Below the pieces are notes generated by a model that was given only the letters and a program-made list of their open reading frames with translations, made no database searches and was not told the DNA's origin. A program made the position numbers and the translations under genes. A stretch of DNA of 44,135 bases from the IMG/VR virus record IMGVR_UViG_3300030389_003163, positions 1 through 44,135 of that record, one strand, 5' to 3'. Origin of the DNA: a virus. Positions 16,501 through 41,755 of the stretch are shown here, piece by piece (the first letter of the stretch is position 1; every line of letters begins with the position of its first letter).

Positions 16501-19500
16501 CATTTTTAAGAGAGGAAGGTATATCCGATGACAATATTCAAGAAGCACTCCCCACAACAGACGGACACCGCATCAATCGTGGAGTTAGTCCCGACACAGG
16601 AAATGAGCAACTTAGTGAAAGAGCTTCAGACGTTAGTAAAAAAATCCAAGACTTCCAAACTCAAGGGGAGTTCGATGCGGAAATCAGGCGAAGAACGGAT
16701 GCCAATAAGCAGTCCATTGACGACAGACGTAGAAGCATCGGAAGATACATAGATGACTCTATAAAAGAACGAACAAGAGTAGAGGGTACAACTCGTGGTG
16801 ATGTGATGACTCATCAGCATAAGATGATGTACACAGCCTCTGCCAACGCCATAGCTGACAGGCTTGCAGGAAAGATACCTAATTTTATTCCTGTAATAGG
16901 CGGTAAAAAGATACCTTTCGTTGGTTTCGATCAAAAGAAATCAAAAGAGTTATCGGATTTATTTATAAGATACTTCCAAGACCGCATGATACCAGTGGGT
17001 AGAATGATCGATGAGTTGCAGGAAAAAGGATTTAAACTAAGTGATGCTTTCGATCCTGTGATGCAAGAGCAGTTGATGCAAGGTAAAACAGGTGTCCTTT
17101 TGGAGAATAAGAAGGAGACCATATACAAGAAGCCAATGGACATCATCAAGAAGTTTCAATACAGTGAAGCCGATCTCAACGCATTGCAAGAGGTGTCACG
17201 GAATGCCTCTGATCCTGATCAGCAGGGTTACGTCACAGAGATGAGAGAGAAGTTTTATCCGTCATTCTGGAAGAGAATATTGTTTGGTGATCAAAGCAAA
17301 AAGCTCGTCATGGCTGAGACATATCTCTATGCCTTACACGCAAAAGAGAGAAACGCATACATAAGACAGATAGATGTAAACAAGGTTAACCAGTTTCCAA
17401 ACAGAGGCTCTGGTATGTCCGACACTGAGGCTGATGCTATAATTAATTGGTTCAAGCAACAGCCAGAAAGTTCTAGGGAACTTTTGAACGATCTACAGGA
17501 ATCTGTCAGAGAGGTTATAGCCGATACTAACAAGACAAGAGAGGATGCAGGATTGCAACGCATCTTTGATACAGGACCTCGTTGGAAAGACTATGTTCCT
17601 CTAAAAGGTATCTTCCACGTTGAGGATGAAACAGTGGATTACTCCAACGGTAGTGCGAGACTGCCATCACAACAGCCCATGTTTGGGGCTATGTTTGCAG
17701 AGGACAGACAGGTCAAAGGTCGTATGGAATATGCTCCTAACATACTTGCCAACGTGTTTACACAAAACGCTAACTCAACCATCAGAGCAGAGAGAAACAA
17801 GGTCGGATTGTCAATGCTAAATCTTATACGGCAAGACCCAGAGCTACTGAGAGACTATGCACAGATACAGGATATACCTGGTCAAACAAGACGAAGAGAT
17901 GCACGAACAGGGATACTTAGCAGTAAACCGAACACGAGACTACAAGATGCGTTGGATAAGAATGTTCTAGTTGTAAAAGAAGACGGAAACGAAGTTAACA
18001 TACGATTTAACAGTGCGGTTATGGCAGGTGCATTCAGAGGTGATACTGCCATCAACATCCAAGGATTTATGGTTCCACAAATAGGTAGGTTCAATAGGTT
18101 TCTATCGAACATCAATACCTCTTATAACCCTGCGTTTATCATACCAAACTTTGCCAGAGACTTGCAGACAGCCTTGGTAAATATAGATCAGTACGAGGGA
18201 GAGAACCTAAAGAAAACCGTATTCAAGAGAACTCTTCCGATGGCAAGAGGTGTCATGAGAGCCGTAAACAGAGACCCATCAAAGAGAGATACCACATCAC
18301 CAGAGGCAAAAGCATACCTCGACTTTGTTGCAAACGGTGGTAAGAACGTAACCAACCAGATGACCACGTTAGAAGATCAGGCTAATGACATATCACGAAT
18401 CATGGGGGAGATAGCCGAGGGTGGTCTTGTTGGTAATCTACAAAAAGTTAGAAACGGTTGGGTTGGCGATAAGACAGCAAGTATATTCAGCTATGTCGAG
18501 AACCTCAATACTGCGGCTGAGAACGGTGTTCGTGTTGCCACATATCAAACTTTGCTTGATACAGGTAAGTACAGCAAGGAGCAGGCAGCCTTGGCGGCTC
18601 GTAACATCACTGTGAACTTTGCAAAAGGCGGTGAACTCAAACAGCCATTTAACTCATTGTATCTATTCTACAATGCTTCTCTCCAAGGATCGTTTGCGTT
18701 ACTACAGGCATTCTCAAAGTCTGCGAAAGTCAGGAGATTATGGATGGGTCTCCTTTTCTTAGGTATATCTCTAGATCAGCTAGGAGCGTTGTTTTCGGAC
18801 GAGGACGAAGAGGGCATGAAGCAATACGACAAGATCACAGACTTCATGCATGAGCATACAATGATACTTCCAAACTTTGGCAATGTAGCAGAAGCAGTTA
18901 CAGGCAAAGAGTTGGAGATGAAGACATTCATATCCATACCGCTACCTTACGGTGTCAACATGGCATACAATACAGGTCGTGCTGTAAGTAGAAGATTAAG
19001 AGGCGGTTATACAGGAGCGCAGGCGACCAGTACGATTATGTCCACATTTTTTGAGGCAGTTAATCCGTATGGCGGTATGGAGAGTTTCGATAACTTTGTG
19101 TTCCCAACAATACTTGATCCGTACATGAGTTTAAAAAACAACATCGACTACGATAAGACACCAATATACAGAGAGGTTTCACAGTTTGCTGTAGGCACAC
19201 CTGATAGTCAGGCGTATTGGAACAGTGCATCTCCAAGTGCTGTTGGTGTTGCACAGTTCTTAAACAGAGCAACAGGTGGATCGACAGTGCGTAAAGGCTT
19301 AATAGATTGGTCACCAGATAGCATAGACTTCATCTTTGGTTATCTAACAGGTGGTGTTGGTGTATTTGTACAGAGGTCTGCCAACGCAGGATATCAGGTC
19401 GTGTCAGGCAACGTATTTAGAAGTTTTGAAGATGGATTAAGTTCACAAGAACTCAGAGAGGGCATAAGACAAACACCGTTTGTAAGAAGAGTTCTTTACT

Positions 19501-19871
19501 CCACATCAGAGCGAGAGGACACAGGTATGTTTATCGCTAAACGTAACGAAGTATTTATAGCAAGGAAAGAGTTGCAAGCCGCAGCACAGACAGGTGATCC
19601 AACAGAAATTCAAGCAGTGCGAGATAGATACAAAGACGAACTGAAAGTGTATGGCATCATACGAGCCATAAACTCCAAGAGACAAAAGCTTACGACAGCA
19701 AGAAATCAGCTTCTACGAGCAGACCTCAAAAGGCTAGGTATAGACGAGCAAGAGAGAGAACGAAGGTTAGAGGTCTTGGATAAGGCTATACAGAAACTTA
19801 TTCAAAGAGGTAACGCTGTGATGAGAGATGTTGATATGTCTTACACTACAGAGTTAGGACTAACAGGATAA
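10578..19871 (+). CDS. Giant multidomain ejected protein (polyvalent type)
   Basis: A 3097-residue protein. Residues about 120-180 are hydrophobic. Residues about 470-770 are rich in charged helices. A zincin-like site follows: H879-E880-x-x-H883 (NHEILHS) with E959-E961 and E965 downstream as possible third ligands. Residues about 1180-1275 match an ADP-ribosyltransferase layout: R1181 in LFRIG, S1197 and S1199 in HSYSLTPN, and E1268-Q-E1270 in EQEVLVKP. From about 2500, YNPAFIIPNFARDLQTALVN and the hydrophobic LWMGLLFLGISLDQLG near 2723 recall the C-terminal domain of large polyvalent proteins. Such proteins are packaged in the head and injected to protect DNA or reprogram the host. The size and position fit that role; domain names are my reading and were not searched. 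Confidence 0.7.
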   Translation: MPLKIVQSPETGKYYPVNIAGETPTEEEKARIREYLSQREKPVEPQEVEKEYEAKSGIVGAFDVGTDLMANQLYSTVEGIGNITGIKALQDFGREGAESYSESAAQKSEGLTRLGDVEGGYTGAKFVAETFGQAAPQIGTALAVGAATAALAPALPLAFVAGSVVATLPLLFGANRERQKEVDEAEGRPVEVNEGAAFIAGLGQSFLESLSLKFLTAVNKAGLKIDTTKFAERGLLTGIQRAAPKATAVGVAAGKGAGVEGLTEIGQQAIERIQAGLDPLSDDAMAEYLEAGVAGGIVGGGLRGTVATATELSGKKEEADKLKELAEDEQTDIKRDQEALKRSRASFNQEPLKLQVEQGGVVTDALSDEQIGRAIGRRTAAEREILPDELTEVEKKELSLFRTRNNIPQDKPISLSEIRSALGEDKANELASQQGLTADSRRYPLITQNNKFTHEQYKKVLDEIGKKQKKAFTETELDQAIQKVTGNFSDEFTIDIRNALITTGNLRATQDQIYNYETQTLFPLKKVKFQKTTPLAQGKDYTVEGSVAKKANQLTEERDRLQNRLDEIPKEIENKENLIAKLDQLQNIDLTTDEGMKTAGLYLGKQFKPLPKNATPQRRRQNAQRIATEVRRRAGQIGNLEVEPTGERKNLKNLREEVENTKNAIESLSQEIDAMRTKDFRIENTEKGGRGMQSLNDPKTLRFALRNKEIDLKLAEQRLKNQKKAKESDEVLQATDNEISILKTEIDEFKNRLDNPTAPVQENIEQNDGNASSAGAEVAMGKPFSPKYRAKMAAIGSRLKKYMYKELKLNPEQVGLILDKLIDPNKNFVTFGAEQRAAGTDIAENKRMIYLATDLFDPEMVEKGNLNEAYKRLKSTLNHEILHSLRATNIITDPEFNALVKAAKTRKRVIFKDGKLTERKYSYFEHALNLYPRSKTRNDGVEVQFYPDMSDQKYAEMVEEEAVAEMFRDVMDGKLKMGGKPRTLLQRIKDFFLYLFKSHQDNDVISVEQIFEDIKSGKIGDTRRGRAGDDDRGKRLSISRAFMEAEENYTEGYKYKDMGFHKIVKNMLDEGYKFNPETIEYLGMKEGSEIVPPVEDYVANLYTNRGLDYLQSRHSGDRGRNLALLYQGKVGISQAEVDRQPRKDDMSFVPDEQALEKIKFDLWKITQAHLIHLPDRIPLFRIGPVDSKNLYKGQMHSYSLTPNPSQMGMYKNKRSFAYKEYIKKRKAELGLFGRGQVEPEVQGYLVDKEDIVVAPNLIRGDIFAKDPEQEVLVKPADIMRADIDEYEYIYGKPDVRVRRSKGRELGFQVSPKVNMIPSDTTLISLTNFIKENPYGFTITSDTFEPVPTGFVVAPVKAAEIPVGKDLSLDFLREWINNAKDISGILNREIFMGGWKDSKTDDYYLDNTIIFDNKEEALYVGQASDQKAIFHIDELNEIRTEDGIRELKEGGAYRDQLAERYRRSVEKASSLFDEARVQRGRLPIGGRAVDQEFKKRSISRLDPELFQISSLPEVDLSTLEFVSRLGENDKPENLVKVVRDYLDERMQRSGVDFRVDYTDPDPEVLEKIATLMAAEAEVALARDGNAIGWYDNKLKLAKKLFGLVHPEIVNKKDHEAAFDFALAVTSNGTSVVDNSKFAIEAYRSWVRNGRFDIKGYGDKVDAMQKAFSFYNALYDFYDRTRGNKTTAERVADFLDEKMTVRDLRESDFLRTISEEYDLNILASLAQESVDTEVTVSAIIGAKIGNGFYQNLRGNYNNLTMDRWWQRFWNRITGNPFVKTGDATKIQAYRDFIDQLKRPKRDLPDIDRQALRATMKSMDNPVIKTGKFEGGIQDVDTNIVDIALQFAVERNKLYKRISNEGVGKLKGEAKRAIVARNREAAGIDENTDMSKVANRMVRNFAETLDDSPRGPLERSYMRSAVDRAIKILEQDKIVEPNSLTVADFQALMWFYEKSLLRNLGAKTGRGSENDYVDGAIAFLREEGISDDNIQEALPTTDGHRINRGVSPDTGNEQLSERASDVSKKIQDFQTQGEFDAEIRRRTDANKQSIDDRRRSIGRYIDDSIKERTRVEGTTRGDVMTHQHKMMYTASANAIADRLAGKIPNFIPVIGGKKIPFVGFDQKKSKELSDLFIRYFQDRMIPVGRMIDELQEKGFKLSDAFDPVMQEQLMQGKTGVLLENKKETIYKKPMDIIKKFQYSEADLNALQEVSRNASDPDQQGYVTEMREKFYPSFWKRILFGDQSKKLVMAETYLYALHAKERNAYIRQIDVNKVNQFPNRGSGMSDTEADAIINWFKQQPESSRELLNDLQESVREVIADTNKTREDAGLQRIFDTGPRWKDYVPLKGIFHVEDETVDYSNGSARLPSQQPMFGAMFAEDRQVKGRMEYAPNILANVFTQNANSTIRAERNKVGLSMLNLIRQDPELLRDYAQIQDIPGQTRRRDARTGILSSKPNTRLQDALDKNVLVVKEDGNEVNIRFNSAVMAGAFRGDTAINIQGFMVPQIGRFNRFLSNINTSYNPAFIIPNFARDLQTALVNIDQYEGENLKKTVFKRTLPMARGVMRAVNRDPSKRDTTSPEAKAYLDFVANGGKNVTNQMTTLEDQANDISRIMGEIAEGGLVGNLQKVRNGWVGDKTASIFSYVENLNTAAENGVRVATYQTLLDTGKYSKEQAALAARNITVNFAKGGELKQPFNSLYLFYNASLQGSFALLQAFSKSAKVRRLWMGLLFLGISLDQLGALFSDEDEEGMKQYDKITDFMHEHTMILPNFGNVAEAVTGKELEMKTFISIPLPYGVNMAYNTGRAVSRRLRGGYTGAQATSTIMSTFFEAVNPYGGMESFDNFVFPTILDPYMSLKNNIDYDKTPIYREVSQFAVGTPDSQAYWNSASPSAVGVAQFLNRATGGSTVRKGLIDWSPDSIDFIFGYLTGGVGVFVQRSANAGYQVVSGNVFRSFEDGLSSQELREGIRQTPFVRRVLYSTSEREDTGMFIAKRNEVFIARKELQAAAQTGDPTEIQAVRDRYKDELKVYGIIRAINSKRQKLTTARNQLLRADLKRLGIDEQERERRLEVLDKAIQKLIQRGNAVMRDVDMSYTTELGLTG
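12024..12041. repeat. 18-bp palindrome, copy inside giant gene
   Basis: AAAGTT-ACAGGT-AACTTT, within codons for QKVTGNFS. Both arms are exact. Confidence 0.7.
17467..17484. repeat. 18-bp palindrome, second copy inside giant gene
   Basis: AAAGTT-CTAGGG-AACTTT, within codons for ESSRELL. It is read in a different codon register from the copy at 12024, so the match is not caused by a repeated peptide. Confidence 0.7.
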
Positions 19872-27536: not shown

Positions 27537-27603
27537 GTGATTTTATGTTTTTCACTCTGACAAATAAGTCATACTTGGGTCTCTTCGGAGACCCTTTTTT
27601 TTT
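27537..27603 (+). ncRNA. Possible small RNA of about 65 nt
   Basis: Bounded by the predicted promoter at 27501-27530 and a strong intrinsic terminator at 27577-27603. The body before the terminator stem is AT-rich and unstructured and could base-pair with a target. The only support is the promoter-terminator pair in a gene-free stretch, so the call is tentative. Confidence 0.35.
27577..27603 (+). terminator. Intrinsic terminator, plus strand
   Basis: A perfect stem GGGTCTC / GAGACCC closed by a TTCG tetraloop and followed by nine T residues. This is the strongest terminator seen on the plus strand. It ends any transcript coming from rusA and the primase-helicase. Confidence 0.9.
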
Positions 27604-27721: not shown

Positions 27722-27760
27722 ACAAAAAAAAAGCCCCCAGACCACGAGAGTCTGAGGGCT
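27722..27760 (-). terminator. Intrinsic terminator of the accessory operon
   Basis: Read on the minus strand: the stem AGCCCTCAGAC / GTCTGGGGGCT has one wobble pair and a seven-base loop, followed by ten T residues. It lies downstream of all the minus-strand genes from 34950 to 27894. Confidence 0.88.
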
Positions 27761-28169: not shown

Positions 28170-29291
28170 TCATTTTTTATTTAGTGCGTACTCATGCTCG
28201 ATTGTACCCAACTCCGCATTGCCTACCATCCGTGGGGCGATCCACTTTTTAATAACTACACCGCCTTTGAGATGGTAGTGCCGAAAGTGTCCCCTGCGTA
28301 GATGCCTACGTTTGGGCGATCCACTACCTCTAAAAATTTTAGGATAGATGGTGATGCCCCTCGGCTTTGGCAGATCGATGCTGATCCGAGTAACCTCGTT
28401 GGTTGGCATTCGCCTGCCCCACATGATCCGAGGTGTACCCTTATCGACAGGCTTGTGCCTCACATGGTTTGGGTAGTTGATCAGTGCAATCAATGCCATG
28501 AGAAAACGAGTGTCTCCTGCATAGCTGTTAACTTGTTGCTGAACAACTCCCTGCATCTCCTTGCTCCAAGGAATTTTATCCAGAGCAAACCCAAAGGTGT
28601 TTGCCCATCCCAGTGCCAAGTGATGAGAAAAACTATTGTGTTTCATCAGTGGATCATCGGCATATTTTTGCCTGTAGATACCGCCCAACAAAACCCAACC
28701 GAGTTCATGCTGATGACTCAGGAACTGTTCGTGGGTGCAGTGCGGTTCCATGTCGGTCAGGCTTGTGTGTGCATCACCGACCGCAACGTGTGCAACCGAA
28801 CCTTTCCAAGTGTATGGACTACCGTACTCGATCATGTGATCGTTAGCTAAGTGATAGTTACAAATCGGAAACACCACTTTGTTATTATCCAAAAAGATTT
28901 GGTCATAGGCATAGACGTTTTTATGCTTGACCTTGTGAATGTGGTAACCGATATGCTCGATTGGACTATCGTTGTCAAAGGGAACACCCAACCGCTTTGC
29001 CCACCTCTCGACCAACTCCATACGTTTTTTTTCATTCCACTCGATCCACATATTATCGACAGGCGGTATCGAGGTATCCAAGGCATCGAACAAATGCCGA
29101 GGCGGAACAAAAGAAGAGGCAACTGCGTGTTCAAGTAAATCATCGTCAACAAAAAACTTTGTTGAATTGATTAACTCGCCCTGAGTGTGTCGCTTTATGT
29201 ACTCACTCTTTTTAGTTTTTTCGTAAACCGAGAGGCTACGCTTGGGATCAACTAAAGAACCAATTACTGTATTAATAAAATCATGCTCCAT
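28170..29291 (-). CDS. Unknown protein with C-terminal Arg/His-rich motif
   Basis: 373 residues. The N-terminal part is helical. The middle has conserved-looking aromatic and His segments (GYHIHKVKHKNVYAYDQIFL, PICNYHLANDHMIEYGSP). The C-terminus reads GSPKRRHLRRGHFRHYHLKG, followed by a W and a basic loop. A similar RRH-x-RRGH-x-R tail recurs in phage proteins of unknown function and suggests nucleic-acid binding. The leader GGAGTGAAC lies just before the ATG. It is downstream of the MoxR/VWA genes in the same operon. Confidence 0.6.
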   Translation of the reverse strand: MEHDFINTVIGSLVDPKRSLSVYEKTKKSEYIKRHTQGELINSTKFFVDDDLLEHAVASSFVPPRHLFDALDTSIPPVDNMWIEWNEKKRMELVERWAKRLGVPFDNDSPIEHIGYHIHKVKHKNVYAYDQIFLDNNKVVFPICNYHLANDHMIEYGSPYTWKGSVAHVAVGDAHTSLTDMEPHCTHEQFLSHQHELGWVLLGGIYRQKYADDPLMKHNSFSHHLALGWANTFGFALDKIPWSKEMQGVVQQQVNSYAGDTRFLMALIALINYPNHVRHKPVDKGTPRIMWGRRMPTNEVTRISIDLPKPRGITIYPKIFRGSGSPKRRHLRRGHFRHYHLKGGVVIKKWIAPRMVGNAELGTIEHEYALNKK

Positions 29292-29608: not shown

Positions 29609-29744
29609 TGCCACCCCCCATCTCGATAGAAAAAGCGCACCAGATAAAGATAAGCACCAGTATGCCCATGAATAAAAAGATACAGTTGAAGATATCGATA
29701 ACGTGCATCTCTCTAATGTATTTCAATATTTCTTTAATGGTCAT
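29601..29744 (-). CDS. Tiny single-TM protein (47 aa)
   Basis: 47 residues, starting MTIKEILKYIREMHVIDIF with one hydrophobic segment (FLFMGILVLIFIWCAF). AGGAG lies nine bases before the ATG. The start overlaps the upstream stop in an ATGA arrangement, and the end overlaps the next membrane-protein gene by eight bases. These overlaps and the clear ribosome site argue for a real gene despite its size. Confidence 0.62.
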   Translation of the reverse strand: MTIKEILKYIREMHVIDIFNCIFLFMGILVLIFIWCAFSIEMGGGNV

Positions 29745-30694
29745 GCTACATCTCCTATCAAAGCTGATTTGATCATTGCGTCCTGTCTCCCATCGATAAG
29801 TCTCTGGGCATCGTATCGGTTGTTACCGAAACCAATAACAGGCTCACCGCTTGCGGTCTCCTTAACCATCATCCAAGCATTAGTCCAGACCCTGAAGTGA
29901 TACTTCATACCCCAGTAACGCTTTTCAGGTTTCTTCCATACAGGCTGATAGACCGTAGCACTGTATACCTCGATACCCTGATCAGATAATTCCTGTAACT
30001 CCTTGGCATCGATGTCGGTGCGTGGCTGTAGATCAAGGGTCATGGCAAGTCTGCCCTGATACTTGAAAGTCTCTAACCCCCTCTGCATGATCTTTTTCTT
30101 CCAGAGGTAAGGAACTACAATTCGGATACGCTTGTAACTGGAGTCCAAAAGCTGACCGCCAGAGAGAAGTCGTATGCTCTCGTCTAGGTCTCTGGACTCT
30201 ATCACAGGCTTGCCAGAGTAAGTACCATAACGATGCTCGATTGCAACTCCACCCTCTTTCTCTGCCTTTGGAAAGGCATTAGAGAACACGCTCTTGAAAG
30301 CATACATACTGTCATATGCTCTTTCGAATGGAACATTCTCAGGCTTGAACTTTAAAGTGTTAGGCTTGTCCTCATCGAGTTCATAGGCATTGCCTCGTGC
30401 GTTCTCTCGCATATCCTCAAACTCTCGCCTCATATCGGCAAAGGTATGGAGATAGGGTGGCAGTGTTCTCTCAGGGTATGAGAGTTGAGAGGCATCATAG
30501 AAACCATTATGTTGTGCATCTAAGATGTAGTCTCTAACGTGTTCTGGCTTTTCCGAGTAATCACTCTTGCCAGTTTTCCTGTAGTTCTCCGAGGTCAACC
30601 ACTGGGAAACAGAGGTTGGCACTTTGTAGTGATCCAAGAGGAACTGCATATGCTCCCTGCGTACTGCAAGGTCTTGATTTATTTTAACTGTCAT
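29741..30694 (-). CDS. Unknown accessory-operon protein
   Basis: 317 residues, mixed alpha/beta. Segments include SQLSYPERTLPPYLHTFADM, FKYQGRLAMTLDLQPRTDID, a Trp/Tyr-rich region near the end (KPEKRYWGMKYHFRVWTNAW), and a C-terminal helix with RYDAQRLIDGRQDAMIKSAL. No catalytic motif was identified. The leader AAGGAGTGAAAA lies before the ATG. It lies close to the MoxR/VWA genes and may be a target or partner of that machinery. Confidence 0.6.
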   Translation of the reverse strand: MTVKINQDLAVRREHMQFLLDHYKVPTSVSQWLTSENYRKTGKSDYSEKPEHVRDYILDAQHNGFYDASQLSYPERTLPPYLHTFADMRREFEDMRENARGNAYELDEDKPNTLKFKPENVPFERAYDSMYAFKSVFSNAFPKAEKEGGVAIEHRYGTYSGKPVIESRDLDESIRLLSGGQLLDSSYKRIRIVVPYLWKKKIMQRGLETFKYQGRLAMTLDLQPRTDIDAKELQELSDQGIEVYSATVYQPVWKKPEKRYWGMKYHFRVWTNAWMMVKETASGEPVIGFGNNRYDAQRLIDGRQDAMIKSALIGDVA

Positions 30695-31059: not shown

Positions 31060-32280
31060 CTAGTCCTTAACGTGGATGGTCTCACCGAAAGGGGCATCGA
31101 CCTCATACCCAGAAGTATTGATCCAAAGCACCTCACAAGGCGGTGCAGTGTCTGGGTAATCGTCTATACCCATGTCAGTAAGGAACATCACCTTGGTATC
31201 CTCATCGATTAGGTGATTGTCTTCGAGGTACTGAAAGCAGGGTGCAACAGCAGTGCCACCGCATCGAGTACGCTCCAGAGATGTAATCTCCTCACCCTCT
31301 TGATAGTAGGCGATGTTCTCCTCATCGATGCTTGTGTCGAATGGGATCAGGGTCACACTGGTAGGCTTGCAAGTGAGAGATATCTCGTTCAACTCTGCAA
31401 GGGCAAGCTTGCGTTCGTCAGTGCGTACACTGCCACTCTGATCATCGAATATAATCAACTTGCCTACACCCTTGGTCTCCAGTACAGGATCGAGAATACC
31501 AGTAGTCCGATAGGTAACGATATCGAAAAACTCGTAAGTGTAATCGTCAGGCTGATCACCGCCATTCGCAAACCTGCGTAGCTTGTCTCGCCAATCAACC
31601 TTAGGTGTTAACAACTCATCGATCAAACCCTTGACCGCACTGGGCAGATTGCCTGCTGTTCTCGGTGCGTTGAGGATCATCTGATCAATATCTGCCTCAA
31701 GAGTAGATAGGTCTGCCTCGGACATAACCGAACCGTCCTCATTGGTAGGCTCTAGCATCTCGCCCCAAGGTTGAGGCTGTAGTCCAGAACCGCCCTGACC
31801 CTGACCGTCCTGCTCCTGCTTGTCCTCTTCCTCTTGCTGTTTGTTCAAGCGGTTGTAGATAACCTCTGCGGTCAAGCCTCGGAAAGCAGGATCGAGCAAA
31901 GCACCCTCAGGCAAACTCAAACCGCTCTTAGGATCATCACGAATAATGTCCTCGATGATCCAGTTAACCGCATGATCACAAGCCATATTCCAAAGCTTAT
32001 GATTACGATTTTTCATACGCAAAACGTGCTTGAATACAACGTGCAAAATCTCATGCAGTAAAACAGTGGCGGTCTCCTGTGGTGACAGGGAGTCGGTGAA
32101 TGCCCTGTTCCAGTAAACCTTTTTGCCATCGGTTGCCATCGTGGCTAAATCGTCACGTTCAACGATAGGCATTCTGGTGAGGCTTGTACCGAAAAAGGTA
32201 TGTCTGAGCGTCAGGTGTACAGTGCCTTTCTTGATCTTAACATCGGCTGACCATGACGATGCATTAACTTGTAAATTCAT
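31060..32280 (-). CDS. Metallopeptidase-VWA protein, DUF2201-like
   Basis: 406 residues with two domains. The N-terminal half holds a zincin motif (LLHEILHVVFKH: H76, E77, H80, with H85 and D102 nearby) and a Gln/Gly linker at about 145-175. The C-terminal half is a von Willebrand A fold with a full MIDAS: D280-x-S282-x-S284 (FDDQSGS), T343 (CGGTAV) and D369 (LTDMGID). This pairing is typical of VWA proteins that team with MoxR ATPases to remodel or activate targets. The MoxR-like gene is directly upstream. Protease activity is inferred from the motif only. Confidence 0.82.
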   Translation of the reverse strand: MNLQVNASSWSADVKIKKGTVHLTLRHTFFGTSLTRMPIVERDDLATMATDGKKVYWNRAFTDSLSPQETATVLLHEILHVVFKHVLRMKNRNHKLWNMACDHAVNWIIEDIIRDDPKSGLSLPEGALLDPAFRGLTAEVIYNRLNKQQEEEDKQEQDGQGQGGSGLQPQPWGEMLEPTNEDGSVMSEADLSTLEADIDQMILNAPRTAGNLPSAVKGLIDELLTPKVDWRDKLRRFANGGDQPDDYTYEFFDIVTYRTTGILDPVLETKGVGKLIIFDDQSGSVRTDERKLALAELNEISLTCKPTSVTLIPFDTSIDEENIAYYQEGEEITSLERTRCGGTAVAPCFQYLEDNHLIDEDTKVMFLTDMGIDDYPDTAPPCEVLWINTSGYEVDAPFGETIHVKD

Positions 32281-32299
32281 TTTTCACTCCTAAAATTGT

Positions 32300-32318
32300 G
32301 GGGGGAAAGTTCCCCCCC
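32300..32318 (-). other. Intergenic hairpin between MoxR and VWA genes
   Basis: GGGGGGAA and TTCCCCCC form a nearly complete palindrome in the 41-base gap. Its loop contains the AAAGTT half-site. It may limit or process the mRNA between the two coupled genes. Confidence 0.6.
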
Positions 32319-32321
32319 AGA

Positions 32322-33395
32322 TTAAACAATCAACTCTCTGCCAGAGTTTCTCACCCATTCTTTGTAGGCTTTGTTCTTGAGTAACTCAGGGTTGCGTCTG
32401 ATTGCGTCCTTGATGACAACGACAGCCATCTCATCCTTGTTGATCTCCTTAAATCGAGAGATGTATTTGACGATGTTGTCAAAATTTTTCTCGTTAGCCT
32501 TGGTGGAGATAGCACCACACAGGGCATAGAGTACATCCACTTTCTCAGGTATGGTTGCAGTGTCTGGATTGTTGATTAGCTTATCCAGATCGAGGAACTC
32601 AGGCACACTGCCGATCAACTTGAGAAAACCTATGAAATCGTTAGTAGCACTCTCGCCAACTGTGCCTGCTATTAATTTCATCAGGGTGACCTTGTTGAGA
32701 CCTTTCACCTTTAGGATATGCCCCACCTTTTCCCATGATCTGGGAGTGTAGCAAACATCCTGCGTAGGATCGTTGAGGTAGTAGAAATTAGGTCTCGCTC
32801 TGAGGTAAGCATTCACCTTAAAGTCAAGACCGATCTTAGCAAAGTAGCTGAGTGTGTCCTCAAGATCAGGGGCAATTGGGATGTAAGTCAAAACATCCTT
32901 AACGTGTGATGGCAGTGCGTTAACTCCTGCCTTGTCAGACAATCTGTTACCTGCACAGACAACCTGCCAACCCTCTGGCAACTCCCAATCTCCAATTCTT
33001 CGCTCAAGAATAAGAGGTCTGGCAACATTAAGAGTTGCAGTGATTGCTTGAGCCAACTCGTCCAGAAATAAAACTCCTGTCTTGTAACCCTCGGCAATCA
33101 TGCGTTCAATATTCTTGATGAATATCGGCTTGGTCTGGTTGGTCTCAGTGCCATCCTTGTTTGGTATTTTGTCACCGCCTACCTGAGTAGGATTAAAGGT
33201 TGCTAGGTGCAGTGGCTCTAAGCCTCGACCTGTTCTTTCACAAGCCTGCTTGACCGCAGAACTCTTGCCAACTCCTGCACCACTGACAAGGTAGGGAACA
33301 ACCCTAGATTGATCATTGGCTGTAGCAGGCAAGCTATCGTTGTAGTCGAGTATTGAGATTAGGCTATCAATAGCCTCTGATATTTTCCATTCCAT
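32322..33395 (-). CDS. MoxR-like AAA+ ATPase
   Basis: 357 residues. Walker A is SGAGVGKSS (residues 38-46, K44), Walker B is VLFLDEL (108-114, D112, E113), and sensor 1 is CAGNRLSD (N150). The order and spacing match MoxR-type AAA+ proteins. They form rings and act with VWA-domain partners as chaperone-like machines on specific targets. The partner gene is directly downstream. The C-terminal third (residues about 220-357) is helical. Its leader carries two stacked hairpins and the GGAGTGAA ribosome site. Confidence 0.85.
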   Translation of the reverse strand: MEWKISEAIDSLISILDYNDSLPATANDQSRVVPYLVSGAGVGKSSAVKQACERTGRGLEPLHLATFNPTQVGGDKIPNKDGTETNQTKPIFIKNIERMIAEGYKTGVLFLDELAQAITATLNVARPLILERRIGDWELPEGWQVVCAGNRLSDKAGVNALPSHVKDVLTYIPIAPDLEDTLSYFAKIGLDFKVNAYLRARPNFYYLNDPTQDVCYTPRSWEKVGHILKVKGLNKVTLMKLIAGTVGESATNDFIGFLKLIGSVPEFLDLDKLINNPDTATIPEKVDVLYALCGAISTKANEKNFDNIVKYISRFKEINKDEMAVVVIKDAIRRNPELLKNKAYKEWVRNSGRELIV

Positions 33396-33428
33396 GATTT
33401 CACTCCTTTTTTATTGTTGATGGATGGT

Positions 33429-33480
33429 GATGCTATGTGCATCCCCAGAGGCGGTGAAAGTTATATGAAACTTTACCGCC
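33429..33480 (-). repeat. 18-bp palindrome in GC-armed hairpin, MoxR leader
   Basis: The core AAAGTT-ATATGA-AACTTT (33457-33474) is enclosed by GGCGGT (33450-33455) and ACCGCC (33475-33480). Next to it is GATGC-TATGT-GCATC (33429-33443). The layout parallels 30993-31049 before the 30963 gene, so the two leaders share a design. Confidence 0.8.
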
Positions 33481-33495
33481 CTAGGGGATAAACAT

Positions 33496-34194
33496 TTACG
33501 ATGCGTAGAGGTTGTTGTTTAGATCGTCTTGCTGATCCTGATTAATGCTATCGAGGATTTTGTCCTCTGCCTGTTCGCACTCATCCAGTATCTGCTTTTC
33601 CTCTTTTTCTGCCTTGTCGATCTTCGCACCCTTTTTGTTGATCTTATTCTTAGCCGTTAGTCTGGCTTGGAATATCTTATCGAACTCCCTGTACTCGTCA
33701 GGTGATAGACCGCCTTTCCAACCGCTACCGTCCTTAGTGTGCCTGCCCAATATCTTGTCCACTAGCAGACCTACTTTGCTTGTGTCCTCTCGGTTAGGAT
33801 CACAAGTAGCAACTAGCTTTGCCTCAGAGGTGATATCTGCCTTGGCAAAGGCATCCTCTATCCAACCCTCGATATCGTTGTGACCTTTGGGCGGTAGCTG
33901 TTTGGTAGTCTTAAACCACTTGATAACGTGCTGAGTTTTCTCTGCTTTTTTCTTAACAAAGCTTGGTGAGTATCCGCAGTTATTAGCCAACTCGGTGCGT
34001 AGTTTAGTCATAACGTCAGGCTCGATCACGTTGCCTTTGTGGTCTAAAAACTTAGAGGCAAGCTTAGTGTAAATACCTACTTGAGCCGTATTGATCAGAG
34101 CAGAGTTGTCTTTGTTAGTTGCCCTAGCTTTACTGATCTCTTGAAAGTTACCCTTTAAGATTTGAGTATCGTCTTGATTTAAAATATTTGTCAT
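33496..34194 (-). CDS. Lys-rich helical unknown protein upstream of MoxR
   Basis: 232 residues from the ATG at 34194, chosen because TAGGAGTGAACCA precedes it. The N-terminus has ILNQDDTQILKGNFQEISKA. The middle contains PSFVKKKAEKTQHVIKWFKT. The C-terminal third is a long charged, likely coiled-coil segment (KINKKGAKIDKAEKEEKQIL). It could be an adaptor or substrate of the MoxR/VWA pair, since such systems usually include a third protein, but this is inference. Confidence 0.58.
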   Translation of the reverse strand: MTNILNQDDTQILKGNFQEISKARATNKDNSALINTAQVGIYTKLASKFLDHKGNVIEPDVMTKLRTELANNCGYSPSFVKKKAEKTQHVIKWFKTTKQLPPKGHNDIEGWIEDAFAKADITSEAKLVATCDPNREDTSKVGLLVDKILGRHTKDGSGWKGGLSPDEYREFDKIFQARLTAKNKINKKGAKIDKAEKEEKQILDECEQAEDKILDSINQDQQDDLNNNLYAS

Positions 34195-34225
34195 TGGTTC
34201 ACTCCTATTTGACAGTTGATGTTGC

Positions 34226-34263
34226 CCTGTAATTACAGGCGAGTCGAGCCTCAACTGAGGCTC
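34226..34263 (-). other. Tandem hairpin element A
   Basis: CCTGTAATTACAGG (34226-34239) is a perfect 14-base palindrome, followed by GAGCCTC / GAGGCTC (34246-34263) with a four-base loop. A second copy of this two-part element lies at 34606-34646. Confidence 0.65.
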
Positions 34264-34276
34264 TCATCGTTTGTAA

Positions 34277-34585
34277 TTAGAACGCATCGAGATAATGTGG
34301 ATATGTGCATATATCCCAAAGTGCATCCTGTAAGCTCTTGTAGGTTTGACACCATTCCTCATGTTCACGTTCCCATTGGGTGCCTTTGCTCTCGATGGTT
34401 TGCTCAAGCACTAGCCATTCATTTGTTGCGTAGGTTCCTGTCTCATCGTATTGCCTACGCACCAAGAAAACTCTGCCCTTGTATTCTAATCGATATCCAA
34501 ATGTCAGAGCCAAGCTTTTACCGTATTGCTTTCGCACTGCTTTTTTAAACTTTTGAAACTGTTCTTCTTGTTGATCTATATTCAT
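34277..34585 (-). CDS. Small unknown protein
   Basis: 102 residues from the ATG at 34585. A GTG lies 12 bases upstream, but the GGAGTGAA leader favours the ATG. The N-terminus is Gln/Glu/Lys-rich (EEQFQKFKKAVRKQYGKSLA), the middle holds GYRLEYKGRVFLVRRQYDET, and the C-terminus is acidic and Trp-containing. No family was recognised. Confidence 0.55.
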   Translation of the reverse strand: MNIDQQEEQFQKFKKAVRKQYGKSLALTFGYRLEYKGRVFLVRRQYDETGTYATNEWLVLEQTIESKGTQWEREHEEWCQTYKSLQDALWDICTYPHYLDAF

Positions 34586-34605
34586 TTGTTTTTTCACTCC
34601 TTGAT

Positions 34606-34646
34606 CCTGTTTAATTACAGGGGAGTCGAGCCTCTCGGTGAGGCTC
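34606..34646 (-). other. Tandem hairpin element B
   Basis: CCTGT-TTAATT-ACAGG (34606-34621) and GAGCCTC / GAGGCTC (34628-34646). It has the same order and nearly the same sequence as the element at 34226, so this is a repeated intergenic RNA structure. Confidence 0.65.
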
Positions 34647-34659
34647 TCATCCTTTGTAA

Positions 34660-34950
34660 TTATACTTGCTCCAGTCTATCAAGCTTATTGGTTAATGCCT
34701 TTAAGCAATACTCAGTAAATTCGTTAAGAGTACCTTTAAAATTGCCATCGAAAATCTCGACTGCTTTACGTCTGCCATCGGCAGTTTTTCGATAAGTTAT
34801 AAAGAGGTATGGGTCTCTCTTAACTTGTCTTAAAGTCATAGGCTTTTTGCCTTTTCCTTTAAAAGCTACTGCATAGATTTGCAAAACCTTGTTTAACTCT
34901 TGGGCATTTTTTACTGGGGATGCATACCTTGTACCTAATTGAATAGTCAT
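34660..34950 (-). CDS. Small basic protein, first gene of accessory operon
   Basis: 96 residues with KGKGKKPMTLRQVKRDPYLF, then YRKTADGRRKAVEIFDGNFK and a helical C-terminus. It is the first gene after the leftward promoter, about 330 bases downstream of its start. The leader AAGGAGTGAAAA lies directly before the ATG. First genes of phage accessory operons are often small regulators or host-takeover proteins. No helix-turn-helix is obvious. Confidence 0.6.
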   Translation of the reverse strand: MTIQLGTRYASPVKNAQELNKVLQIYAVAFKGKGKKPMTLRQVKRDPYLFITYRKTADGRRKAVEIFDGNFKGTLNEFTEYCLKALTNKLDRLEQV

Positions 34951-35287: not shown

Positions 35288-35317
35288 ATTATACGCACAC
35301 TTTTAAAACTATGTCAA
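35288..35317 (-). promoter_or_regulatory. Consensus leftward promoter of accessory operon
   Basis: On the minus strand: TTGACA (35312-35317), an 18-base spacer and TATAAT (35288-35293). Both hexamers match the sigma-70 consensus exactly. Transcription should start near 35281 and run through 34950 to 27894. The strength suggests host RNA polymerase use early in infection. Confidence 0.8.
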
Positions 35318-36792: not shown

Positions 36793-36999
36793 ATGAGTGA
36801 ATATAGAAAATACCATTCATCGACTAAGATGAAAAAAGAACGTGCTTTACGAAATAAGAACCGAAGAGCGGCGATTAGAAAAGGAAAAGTAAAGAAAGGT
36901 GACAATAAACAGATTGATCATCGTGATGGTAATCCTAGGAATAACAGGAAAAGCAATCTGAGAGTTATATCCGCAAGACGAAACAGAAAAAAACAGTGA
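36793..36999 (+). CDS. Small HNH-type protein before TerL
   Basis: 68 residues, very basic, with IDHRDGNPRNNRKSNLRVIS. This matches the central part of HNH nucleases (D-H-x-DGN-x-x-N-x-x-x-NLR). The cysteines of full HNH domains are absent. HNH proteins beside terminase genes take part in DNA packaging cuts in several phages. The stop overlaps the GTG start of TerL, so translation is coupled. Confidence 0.65.
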   Translation: MSEYRKYHSSTKMKKERALRNKNRRAAIRKGKVKKGDNKQIDHRDGNPRNNRKSNLRVISARRNRKKQ

Positions 37000-38507
37000 A
37001 CATTCAAACAAAAGATATCAAAAAGAAAATAGGTAGTCTCCCTATAGAGGAGCAAAAAGAAATATTAGCTCTGTTAGAGCAATATGAAAAAGTTAAATCA
37101 AAAGAATCAGCACAGTCACACTTCCTTCCTTTTGTTAAAATGATGTGGAATGGGTTTATAGGAGGACCCCACCACGATATAATGGCGGAATCTTTTGAAA
37201 GAGTAGCAAGAGGTGAGCTAAAAAGATTAATTATCAATATGCCACCCCGTCATACCAAGTCAGAATTTGCATCATACTTGTTTCCTGCTTGGTTCTTGGG
37301 GCAGTATCCTGAAAAAAAGGTGATCCAGACAGCCCACACAGCCGAACTAGCCGTTGGATTTGGCAGAAAAGTCAGGAACCTCATACAATCCCCAGACTAT
37401 CAGGATGTATTTCAGGGCATAGACCTGTCCACAGACAGTAAAGCCGCAGGAAGATGGAATACAAACAAGGGTGGAGACTACTTTGCTATCGGTGTTGGTG
37501 GGGCAGTAACAGGAAAAGGTGCGGATGTACTGATAATTGATGACCCACACTCGGAACAGGACGCACAGGCAGGGCAGTACAACCCAGAGGTCTTTGATAA
37601 AGTGTACGAATGGTACACATCAGGTCCTCGTCAACGTCTACAGCCAGGCGGAGCGATCATTGTAGTGATGACACGATGGGCGAAACGTGATCTTACAGGT
37701 CAGATTATAAAAAGTATGTCCGAAAGAGAGGGTGCAGACGAGTGGGAGGTCATACAACTGCCTGCAATCATGCCATCAGGCAATCCTTTATGGGAAGCTT
37801 TCTGGAAATTAGAAGAATTAGAGAGTTTAAAAGCAGAATTACCTGCTTCTAAGTGGAATGCACAGTATCAACAAGACCCCACCTCCGAGGAAGGGGCGTT
37901 AATTAAGCGTGAATGGTGGAAAGAATGGACAGAACACGAGTTACCACCCTGTGAATGCATAATTCAGTCGTGGGATACCGCTTTTTTAAAGACACAACGC
38001 AGTGACTACAGTGCCTGCACCACATGGGGGGTGTTTTACCATAATAATGACGCTGATCAGCAAAGACCAAACCTGATTCTCCTTGATTCTTTCAAAGATA
38101 AGCTTGAATTTCCTGAACTTAAACGTGCAGCTTACGATAAATACTGGGAATTTGAGCCAGATCAGATGATTGTAGAAGCAAAAGCGTCTGGTGCGCCTTT
38201 GGTGTTTGAGCTTAGAGCTATGGGAATACCTGTAACAGAGTTTACCCCCACTAGGGGTAACGATAAGATAGCAAGAGTTAATGCGGTAACTGATCTTTTC
38301 TCTAGTGGCAGTATATGGTATTATGAATCACGATGGGCAGATGAGTTAATTGAAGAATGTGCCTCATTTCCCACAGGCGATCACGATGATTTAGTTGACA
38401 GTACTACACAGGCACTGTTAAGATTTCGTCAAGGCGGATGGGTTCGTGCTGAAAGAGATGATTGGGATGACGAGCCTAAATACAGGAGACCAGTTGAATA
38501 CTACTAA
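36996..38507 (+). CDS. terL: Terminase large subunit
   Basis: 503 residues with a GTG start overlapping the previous stop. The ATPase has a Walker A-like PPRHTKS (83-89), typical of large terminases, and Walker B with the catalytic acid in DVLIIDDPHSE (177-187). The nuclease domain follows with QSWDTAF (first Asp), IVEAKASG and a final DHDDLVDSTTQALLRF. TerL powers DNA packaging and cuts the concatemer. The sequence shows no gaps or frameshifts. It is followed by a Lys/Gly-rich gene and the portal gene, the standard head-gene order. Confidence 0.93.
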   Translation: MNIQTKDIKKKIGSLPIEEQKEILALLEQYEKVKSKESAQSHFLPFVKMMWNGFIGGPHHDIMAESFERVARGELKRLIINMPPRHTKSEFASYLFPAWFLGQYPEKKVIQTAHTAELAVGFGRKVRNLIQSPDYQDVFQGIDLSTDSKAAGRWNTNKGGDYFAIGVGGAVTGKGADVLIIDDPHSEQDAQAGQYNPEVFDKVYEWYTSGPRQRLQPGGAIIVVMTRWAKRDLTGQIIKSMSEREGADEWEVIQLPAIMPSGNPLWEAFWKLEELESLKAELPASKWNAQYQQDPTSEEGALIKREWWKEWTEHELPPCECIIQSWDTAFLKTQRSDYSACTTWGVFYHNNDADQQRPNLILLDSFKDKLEFPELKRAAYDKYWEFEPDQMIVEAKASGAPLVFELRAMGIPVTEFTPTRGNDKIARVNAVTDLFSSGSIWYYESRWADELIEECASFPTGDHDDLVDSTTQALLRFRQGGWVRAERDDWDDEPKYRRPVEYY

Positions 38508-38516
38508 GGAGCAGTC

Positions 38517-39344
38517 ATGGCTGAAGAAAAGAAAAAAAATAACGGTGTTACTTTCAAACAAAGAGTTGAAAGGTCTATGGGTACAAAGTTTGGAGAGAAA
38601 AAAGCAAAGAAAATATTAGAGAAAGATGCAGCGAAAGGAAATGATCCAAATAGAGTAGTAGCAAGACCGCCAAAAAGAGGACCTGATTTACCAAAGCAAG
38701 GTGTAACAACTGTTCCACCAAAACCCAAAAAACCAAAATCTCCTACTATTGGTAAGACAGGTGGTTCAGGTAAAATGCCAAAAGTTATGCGAGGCGATAC
38801 AGCATCAGCTGCTACTAAAACAACTGGTGGAGACCCACTATCAGGAAAACCAAGAACTATAGCCGCTGCTAAAAAAGCAGGAGAAAAATACTTTTTTGAC
38901 AAACAGGGAGTTAAAAAGTTAGCTGTAACTTCTGCTGAATTAAAAAAATACATGAAAGATAAAGGTATTACATCCACGGCAAAAGGATTGAGAAGCTTTG
39001 CAAATACCTTTGCTCCTAAAAAAGTAACCAAGGCTGAAGCGGAGAAGTTTAAAAAGAAACGTGTAGGCGGTGTTATGCGTAAAAAAGGAGCTGCAGGTGG
39101 CGGAGCTATGAAGAAGAAAGGAATGGCTGCAGGCGGTAGAACCACCATGAAAAAGCAAATGATGCGTGGTGGCGGCATTACAGGCATGAAAAAGAAAATG
39201 ATGGCAGGCGGTGGAGCCATGAAGAAAAAAGGATACGCTATCGGAGGTGCTATGAAGAAGAAGGGCATGAAGAAAGGCGGCAAAACCATGAAGATGAGAG
39301 GTGGAGGTCTAGCCACTAGAGGCACTAACTTCACAATTAGATAA
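38517..39344 (+). CDS. Lys/Gly-rich repetitive protein with MRGGGL end
   Basis: 275 residues, strongly basic. The C-terminal third consists of irregular repeats of the type GGAMKKKGMAAGG separated by Gly runs. It ends in MKMRGGGLATRGTNFTIR, with MRGGGL at 260-265. Lys/Gly proteins with this ending sit between terminase and portal genes in marine phages. Their role is unknown. Nucleic-acid binding or a head decoration role is possible. The minus strand also reads through almost the same stretch as a Pro/Phe-rich frame, which is a shadow. A degenerate 18-bp palindrome lies at 38915. Confidence 0.68.
   Translation: MAEEKKKNNGVTFKQRVERSMGTKFGEKKAKKILEKDAAKGNDPNRVVARPPKRGPDLPKQGVTTVPPKPKKPKSPTIGKTGGSGKMPKVMRGDTASAATKTTGGDPLSGKPRTIAAAKKAGEKYFFDKQGVKKLAVTSAELKKYMKDKGITSTAKGLRSFANTFAPKKVTKAEAEKFKKKRVGGVMRKKGAAGGGAMKKKGMAAGGRTTMKKQMMRGGGITGMKKKMMAGGGAMKKKGYAIGGAMKKKGMKKGGKTMKMRGGGLATRGTNFTIR
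38915..38932. repeat. 18-bp palindrome, degenerate copy
   Basis: AAAGTT-AGCTGT-AACTTC, within the Lys-rich gene. The last base differs from the consensus, as in the GAAGTT copies at 27373 and 27660. Confidence 0.5.
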
Positions 39345-41755
39345 TGGCTGTTGATAAAACTCTAGAACCCTTTGAGGTGCAAGCCGAGGGAAACCCTGAA
39401 GAGTCTCAAATCAAAGTTGAGATCGTCAATCCAGACGCTGTAGCGGTTGAAACAGATGATGGCGGTGTGGTCGTTGACTTTGAAGGTAGCATGACAGAAG
39501 ACCTCATAGGTCCTGAACACAATGGAAATCTGGCAGAGTTTTTAGAGGAGTCAGATTTAGATGAGATGGGTTCGGAGTTAGTCAGTGATTTTGAATCAGA
39601 CAGAACATCTAGAAAAGAATGGTCAAGGTCTTATGTGAAGGGTCTTGATTTGCTTGGCATGAAGATAGAAGAACGAACCCAACCTTGGGAAGGAGCTTCA
39701 GGAGTTTTTCATCCCTTACTATCTGAGGCAATCGTTAGGTTTCAGGCGCAGGCTATGGGTGAGATATTTCCTGCGTCAGGACCTGTACGAACTAAAATAG
39801 TTGGCAAACAAACAAAAGAAAAGAATGCACAGGCAAAGCGTGTAGAGCATGAGATGAACTATATGCTAACCGAGGAGATGACAGAGTATCGTGATGAAAT
39901 GGAACAGATGCTCTTTCGTTTACCATTAGCAGGCTCTGCTTTCAAGAAGGTGTATTACGATCCTATAATGGAAAGACCCTGTTCTATGTTTGTTCCTGCG
40001 GAAGACTTTGTAGTTTCATACGGAGCTTCTGATCTAATGTCCTGTTCTCGTTACACTCATGTAATGAAGAAAACAGAGAACCAAGTAAAAGAATTGATGG
40101 TCAGTGGATTTTATAGAGATATCGATCTTCCAGAACCCACCGTGGATGAGAGCGATATACAGGATAAATACGATGAGATGGAAGGAAATGAATCAGTTTA
40201 TGAAGAGGATGATAGATATACAATATTAGAGATGCACGTTGATATTGAGTTGCCAGAGCCATTTCAAGACAAAGACGGATTAGCCAGACCGTATGTGGTA
40301 ACCATAGATAAGTCATCGAGAACAATTTTATCCATAAGAAGGAACTGGTATGAAACTGATCCAAAGAAGATTAAAAGACAGCATTTTATTCATTATAGAT
40401 ATCTTCCTAGCCTTGGCTTTTATGGTACAGGACTTATTCATCTTATTGGTGGGTTGGCTAAATCGGCTACGTCCATACTGCGTCAGCTTATTGATGCAGG
40501 TACTTTATCGAATCTACCTGCTGGTCTTAAAGCTCGTGGTCTCCGCATTAAAGGGGATGACTCGCCTCTTATGCCTGGTGAGTTCCGAGATGTCGACGTG
40601 CCTGGCGGTGCGATACGAGATTCCATTACGTTTATACCTTATAAAGAACCATCCTCAGTGCTTTACCAGTTATTGGGAAATATTGTCGAAGAGGGAAGAC
40701 GAATTGGGTCGATAGCTGATGTTCAAGTAGGAAACATGAATCCAAACGCACCAGTGGGTACAACACTAGCGTTGTTAGAAAGATCAATGAAAGTAATGTC
40801 TGGTGTGCAAGCCAGACTACACGCATCTCTCAAAAAGGAATTACGCATACTAGCAAAGTGCATACACGACTTCATGCCCTCGGATTATGTCTATGAAACA
40901 GACGGAGAGTTTTCTAGAACAAAAGATTTTGATGGCAGAGTTGATGTCATTCCAGTATCCGACCCTAATGCATCAACAATGGCACAGAGGGTGACACAAT
41001 ATCAATCTGCCTTGCAGTTAGCTCAACAAGCCCCACAGTTGTATGATATGGGTAAGCTGCACAGACAGATGCTAGAGGTGTTGGGTATACAAGATGCGTC
41101 TAGTATTATAAAACTTCCAGATGATTTGACACCAAAAGACCCTGTAACAGAAAACATGGCTATATTAAAACAAGAGCCTGTCAAAGCGTTCAAGTATCAG
41201 GATCACGAAGCACACATAGCGGTGCATACAGCAGCGATGCAAGACCCAAAGATGCAACAGATTATAGGGCAGTCCCCGTTTGCATCAGCGATACAAAACG
41301 CCATATCAGCGCATATTACCGAACACGTTGCATTCCAGTACAGAAAAGAAATAGAGATGCAGATGGGTGTGCCTATGCCAGATGAAGATAAGCCTTTGCC
41401 AGAAGATGTAGAAGAGCAGTTATCCAAGGTTACAGCCGATGCTGCAGCTAAAGTGTTACAGAAGAGTAATGCAGAAATAGCACAACAAGAAGCTATGCAG
41501 AAGTCTCAAGACCCATTAACAATCATGCAACAAAAAGAAATGGCTCTAAAAGAGGCTGAATTTGCACATAAAAAAGAAATGGATTTAGCTAAACTAGAGG
41601 TAGAAACAAAAGCAAAACAAAAAGATCAAGAGATAGAGGTAGCAAAAGTAGCAACAAAAGCTATCACAGATGAGGTTAAATCGAAGAGAGAAGAGAGAAA
41701 ACAAGGTCTTCAAGAAGGAATAGATTTAGCTAGAGAGTTGCTAGATGACCAGTGA
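39344..41755 (+). CDS. Portal protein, P22-like
   Basis: 803 residues. The N-terminus is acidic. Blocks such as QPWEGASGVFHPLLSEAIVR, MGEIFPASGPVRTKIVGKQT and GNMNPNAPVGTTLALLERSM match the P22-type portal family. The C-terminal 150 residues are helical and Gln/Lys/Glu-rich, like the barrel helices of large portals. The portal forms the ring at one vertex through which DNA enters and leaves. The start overlaps the last base of the previous gene, and the end overlaps the next small gene. Confidence 0.88.
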   Translation: MAVDKTLEPFEVQAEGNPEESQIKVEIVNPDAVAVETDDGGVVVDFEGSMTEDLIGPEHNGNLAEFLEESDLDEMGSELVSDFESDRTSRKEWSRSYVKGLDLLGMKIEERTQPWEGASGVFHPLLSEAIVRFQAQAMGEIFPASGPVRTKIVGKQTKEKNAQAKRVEHEMNYMLTEEMTEYRDEMEQMLFRLPLAGSAFKKVYYDPIMERPCSMFVPAEDFVVSYGASDLMSCSRYTHVMKKTENQVKELMVSGFYRDIDLPEPTVDESDIQDKYDEMEGNESVYEEDDRYTILEMHVDIELPEPFQDKDGLARPYVVTIDKSSRTILSIRRNWYETDPKKIKRQHFIHYRYLPSLGFYGTGLIHLIGGLAKSATSILRQLIDAGTLSNLPAGLKARGLRIKGDDSPLMPGEFRDVDVPGGAIRDSITFIPYKEPSSVLYQLLGNIVEEGRRIGSIADVQVGNMNPNAPVGTTLALLERSMKVMSGVQARLHASLKKELRILAKCIHDFMPSDYVYETDGEFSRTKDFDGRVDVIPVSDPNASTMAQRVTQYQSALQLAQQAPQLYDMGKLHRQMLEVLGIQDASSIIKLPDDLTPKDPVTENMAILKQEPVKAFKYQDHEAHIAVHTAAMQDPKMQQIIGQSPFASAIQNAISAHITEHVAFQYRKEIEMQMGVPMPDEDKPLPEDVEEQLSKVTADAAAKVLQKSNAEIAQQEAMQKSQDPLTIMQQKEMALKEAEFAHKKEMDLAKLEVETKAKQKDQEIEVAKVATKAITDEVKSKREERKQGLQEGIDLARELLDDQ

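Follow-up and report, generated by a model that had tools for sequence, protein, structure and literature searches.

The DNA analyzed here (the window) comprises the 44,135 bases of virus record IMGVR_UViG_3300030389_003163, a single metagenomic assembly, for which no near relative was found among phage records with positions 20000–44135 as the query. Its plus strand carries the terminase (36996–38507), portal (39344–41755) and lysis genes, as well as genes for an ejection-type protein and a 3097-aa protein (10578–19871, +), the C-terminal 800 residues of which resemble giant phage proteins with no assigned function (phrog_14770, 616 and 10691). A leftward gene cluster, spanning approximately 35.3 kb to 27.7 kb on the strand opposite to that of the structural genes, contains an ATPase/VWA gene module, and the following features were identified in it:

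35288..35317, minus strand: sigma-70-type promoter match, 12/12, at the head of the leftward cluster (sequence scan)
34660..34950, minus strand: 96-aa ORF between promoter and module (ORF; relatives not found)
34277..34597, minus strand: 106-aa ORF between promoter and module (ORF; relatives not found)
33496..34194, minus strand: 232-aa helical/coiled-coil protein, first gene of a conserved four-gene row, w232 family (ORF, AlphaFold2 model)
32322..33395, minus strand: MoxR-like AAA+ ATPase, 357 aa, N4 gp24/phrog_1297 family (PHROG match, residues)
31060..32280, minus strand: zincin-VWA protein, 406 aa, N4 gp25/phrog_1314 family (Pfam, PHROG, residues, model)
29741..30694, minus strand: divergent member of the c4 family, 317 aa (hhalign, gene order)
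27732..27760, minus strand: intrinsic-terminator-like hairpin, 12 bp stem and T8 (sequence scan)

The three ORFs between 31060 and 34194, which an earlier note on this DNA had described as a unit under a near-consensus phage promoter, were confirmed. The promoter (TTGACA-18-TATAAT, 35317..35288, minus strand) is indeed a strong match, with 12 of 12 positions agreeing and 0.05 such matches expected per shuffled window; however, judged by its sequence it is of the host sigma-70 type, not a phage one, and it lies 1.1 kb upstream of the w232 gene with two small ORFs in between. A conserved promoter was also considered and rejected, since the relatives scored like shuffles. The hairpin at 27732..27760 possibly marks the end of the leftward operon. 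It is opposed by another strong terminator-like hairpin with a T run (27577–27594, plus strand), and the two sit at the junction of the leftward cluster and a rightward primase–helicase gene. An intergenic palindromic element is present in two copies on the minus strand (approximately 34605–34665 and 34222–34282), with outer stems TAATTACA/TGTAATTA, inner stems GAGCCTC/GAGGCTC and a GGAGTGA ribosome site directly after; an Rfam search gave no match to it.

The 357-aa protein matched phrog_1297 (E = 6.3e-67), Pfam AAA_5 remained below the cut-off, and the family profile matched Midasin (2e-20) and CbbQ/NorQ (5e-7) in the PDB, which bears out the MoxR-like assignment made earlier. Residues of Walker A (K44), Walker B (D112/E113), sensor 1 (N150) and sensor 2 (R219) are present and conserved. 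Position 168 falls within the conserved LPSHxKDR motif and, going by MoxR/BchI-type ATPases, we predict it to be the arginine finger; 108 of the 109 aligned homologues have Arg there, the window ATPase alone having Val (GTT). The window protein thus lacks the predicted arginine finger of the LPSHxKDR-type motif, and it is therefore called MoxR-like by homology only; Val168 indicates either an impaired or unusual ATPase or an error in the metagenomic contig. The residue would be accounted for if the window ATPase bound ATP and hydrolysed it poorly, the module being degenerate or a static clamp, or if there were a sequencing or assembly error, which is possible given that there is only this one metagenomic assembly. 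We consider this explanation very unlikely; against it stand the open ORFs and the intact state of every other ATPase, zincin and MIDAS residue. Because of Val168, the claims on mechanism given below lean on the family more than on the window copy.

In the adjacent 406-aa protein, Pfam identified a DUF2201_N metallopeptidase domain (E = 7.8e-37, 127.8 bits against a gathering score of 23.2) and a VWA-like DUF2201 domain (E = 7.8e-14, 52.3 bits against 26.4). The zincin motif (HExxH, 76–80; H76, E77 and H80) and a complete MIDAS (D280, S282, S284, T343 and D369), both noted previously, are present, as is the zincin residue D102; the HExxH and MIDAS residues were invariant in a nine-row alignment and near-invariant among 113 aligned homologues, nearly all of which also keep D102. 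Residues 270–406 of the AlphaFold2 model (pLDDT 85) have a VWA fold matching VWA/integrin I domains (VIA-align against the VWF A2 domain: Z = 12.3, rmsd = 2.6 Å, 134 residues aligned), so that the fold expected from the sequence is supported by structure comparison. The name of phrog_1314, "HNH endonuclease", which has been copied into many records of the zincin-VWA gene, found no support, as the window protein has no Pfam HNH domain and its conserved residues are those of the zincin and VWA domains. In tblastn searches of 50,697 phage records, the window ATPase and VWA protein had matches in 780 and 700 records, respectively.

The upstream gene encodes, as the earlier note had stated, a Lys-rich protein (31 Lys in 232 aa), and its AlphaFold2 model (pLDDT 87) consists of helices only, the C-terminal one being long (165–231). 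Only chance-level matches were obtained for it in Pfam, PHROGs, NCBIfam, PDB sequences and PDB structures; no solved fold matched the model, and among viral models there was a single match, to the uncharacterised A0A6J5P665 (E = 6e-4). No relative was found by a scan of genome contigs with w232, nor did single-protein IMG/VR scans with the window w232 protein or the window VWA protein find relatives. The 317-aa protein downstream of the VWA gene was assigned to a 53-member family, c4, by hhalign (probability 96.5, E = 7.8e-10). Searching the same 50,697 phage records by tblastn with one member each of the w232 and c4 families gave nothing, and the window w232 protein likewise had no match among phage records. 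PADLOC and PHROGs had no match to either protein and Pfam none to w232, although these libraries need not hold the third components (VMAP, FtsH or an effector domain) of the ternary MoxR-vWA conflict systems (PMC7159879).

Relatives were gathered from IMG/VR by two alignment scans (two- and three-row alignments), which yielded 106 loci, 80 of them ATPase-centred. The genes of the pair are not scattered: the VWA gene followed the ATPase gene 3′ on the same strand in 77 of 77 ATPase-centred loci with room, at a distance of −33 to 401 bases, the remaining three running into the contig edge; the eight phages sampled first likewise had the two genes no more than 3 kb apart on one strand, with the ATPase gene first (8/8). 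The search for the trio in other phages showed that the w232 partner is conserved together with the pair. Members of this family (about 235 aa) occur at 72 IMG/VR loci as well as in Planktothrix phage Pag-Yong1; where at least 3.5 kb lay upstream of the ATPase gene, it was present in 52 loci and absent in 14. The Pag-Yong1 match reached 2.9e-38 with the Pag-Yong1 protein included in the iterated profile, and 4.9e-8 and 0.0015 with a profile built without it. Of the 62 loci with enough sequence beyond the VWA gene, 49 had a c4 gene downstream of it, and the order w232–ATPase–VWA–c4 was kept on one strand in all 48 loci holding the four genes. After clustering of the ATPases at 90% identity (n = 30), the VWA gene was present in 30 clusters, w232 in 19, c4 in 18 and all four genes in 18. 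Thus, the co-conservation of the three genes proposed earlier holds, but the conserved unit reaches one gene further, to 29741; what is new is that the third and fourth genes are conserved families in a fixed row of uncultivated podophages.

The pair itself is not novel: it is a known phage gene pair that has never been functionally studied. The window genes are homologues of Escherichia phage N4 gp24 and gp25, which belong to the 14-gene core of N4-like phages, where they are listed as "unknown" and "vWFA domain", respectively (PMC4193335), and a pair of this kind has also been described in jumbo phages (PMC7824862). No functional papers on gp24/gp25 were found in the literature search, nor any biochemical data for a phage member of the pair; for more than a decade, gp24/gp25 have figured among the core genes without an assigned function, and they are present in hundreds of phage records. 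The N4 genes resemble those of the window in encoding a homologous ATPase and zincin-VWA protein, adjacent and on the same strand with the ATPase first, at about 25% identity, whereas neither the w232 nor the c4 family was detected in N4 or the other N4-like phages tested. According to the N4 record, gp24 is the ATPase gene and gp25 the VWA gene; another study calls them "rIIA- and rIIB-like" (PMC9525291), names that the record gives to gp33/gp34.

Two named phages share parts of the longer row. In Roseobacter phage CRP-7 (gp07/gp15/gp16), the ATPase was the best match to that of the window among phage records (34.5% identity), the VWA protein had 28% identity, and a c4-type gene lies directly 3′ of the VWA gene; unlike in the window, seven small ORFs separate the ATPase and VWA genes, and the w232 family was not detected. 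Pag-Yong1 has a terminase and portal homologous to those of the window, carries the pair in a leftward cluster adjoining the terminase, and has a w232-family gene directly upstream of the ATPase gene, but five small genes lie between the ATPase and VWA genes and c4 was not detected. Of its two w232-family matches (39022–39426 and 32213–32806 in its record), one heads the leftward cluster and the other is the gene before the ATPase. Elsewhere, the arrangement of the pair varied: in the vequintavirus Escherichia phage magaca, approximately 3.5 kb separates the MoxR ATPase gene (annotated as two ORFs) from the metallopeptidase gene, which is on the other strand. In Vibrio phage JA-1, the VWA gene has two HNH homing endonuclease genes upstream and no full-length ATPase gene is annotated there, so that the ATPase gene may be interrupted.

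A MoxR-type AAA+ protein with a VWA/MIDAS partner, as in the window, also occurs in NorQ/NorD, RavA/ViaA, Midasin and ATV p618/p892, for all of which clients are known. To our knowledge, the VWA partners of NorQ/NorD, RavA/ViaA and Midasin have no zincin domain. The ATV VWA partner likewise lacks one (PMC7824862).

With regard to timing, N4 gp24/gp25 are middle transcripts (PMC4193335), whereas the window has an upstream sigma-70-type promoter; in phage AR9, the pair is preceded by an annotated early promoter. The module would accordingly be expected to be expressed early or in mid-infection.

The gene neighbours of the pair depend on lineage: helicase and DNA polymerase genes lie beside it in LUZ7 and Vibrio D505, and in PHA46 and S-TIM54 it adjoins virion structural genes and Hsp70/Hsp20. 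The latter setting is what would be expected of a virion assembly or maturation chaperone-protease, in which the ring and the zincin-VWA protein remodel and process structural proteins. Such an assembly role has been proposed for the pair of group 2.2 jumbo phages, which, as in the window, consists of a MoxR AAA+ protein and, next to it, a vWA protein that has a metallopeptidase domain at its N-terminus (PMC7824862); jumbo phage pairs at times adjoin virion genes, the p618 protein of archaeal virus ATV interacts with its VWA protein p892 and with virion proteins (PMC4124505), and RPP1 virion proteins are encoded close to gp24/gp25 homologues (PMC4193335). The window, however, is a podophage-like genome of 44 kb with two additional co-conserved families, unlike those of the jumbo phages, and its module lies on the strand opposite to the structural genes. 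In a check for an association of the pair with the giant C-terminal virion protein, the query matched none of 13 phages. Moreover, both genes of the pair were absent from the whole records of psg01, HTVC023P, HTVC027P, CRP-901, DSL-LC04 and GB2A, which have a terminase and portal homologous to those of the window. Since these six relatives are without the pair and Pag-Yong1 has it, the pair is not needed to build this head–portal type; together with its early or middle transcription elsewhere, this makes a generic role in virion assembly unlikely here.

The earlier note had suggested that the module could disarm host defences. In a host take-over or counter-defence role, it would dismantle or remodel a host complex, with w232 and c4 as targeting adaptors; this would agree with the consensus host-type promoter at the cluster head, with accessory families that differ among phage lineages while the pair is constant, and with the occurrence of MoxR-vWA cores in bacterial conflict systems (PMC7159879). 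The proposal gained no direct support, as none of the four window proteins had a PADLOC match and there is no known partner. In addition, the pair is conserved in a core-like manner across phages of Escherichia, Thermus, Bacillus, cyanobacteria and others, unlike patchy anti-defence genes; because of this conservation over very different hosts, a phage-intrinsic or universally conserved target fits better than defence, and we regard host targeting as improbable.

Our preferred reading, held with confidence just short of even, is an AAA+ remodelling machine of the early or middle phase that carries a tethered peptidase-like adaptor and of which w232 and c4 are probable clients or adaptors. The identities of the genes, the completeness of the VWA and zincin motifs and the constant order of the four genes were observed; the assembly, activity, clients and timing of the machine are inferred. 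By analogy with its family, the AAA+ protein would assemble into a ring, on which the VWA protein may dock as an adaptor via its MIDAS, as with the VWA partners of Midasin and NorQ; the zincin domain carried in by the VWA protein may then cut or bind the remodelled client. The varying neighbours suggest that the remodelling machine is a general one whose partners differ between lineages; in the window, these partners are most likely w232 and c4. As no recognised fold or family was found for either protein, it is gene order that points to them as dedicated clients or adaptors, and if they are, the primary target would be a replication/expression-phase complex encoded by the phage; since both were undetected in the N4-like phages tested, neither is a general client of the pair. 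Val168 and the structural-gene neighbours in PHA46 and S-TIM54 were counted against the remodelling machine. A more specific version, which we consider doubtful, is that the AAA+ ring gates in trans the zincin on the VWA adaptor, and that the two phage proteins dedicated to it act as substrate and adaptor. If so, the four proteins would combine MoxR and VWA parts into an ATP-gated metalloprotease, and we know of no other example of such an enzyme. The fixed four-gene row names two candidate partners, and therefore the target of the MoxR/zincin-VWA pair can be addressed directly by co-purification.

Downstream of the module, a 373-aa protein, w373, is encoded at 28170–29291 (minus strand). It showed a weak local match (pairwise E = 2e-6, 95 aa) to a Pag-Yong1 protein labelled AcrVA2, the gene of which is two genes after the Pag-Yong1 VWA gene; an AcrVA2-like anti-CRISPR was not adopted as its identity, the likeness being local and to a protein so labelled in Pag-Yong1. 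A strong relative of w373 (8e-59) adjoins the ATPase/VWA pair at another locus (L097:8628-9719).
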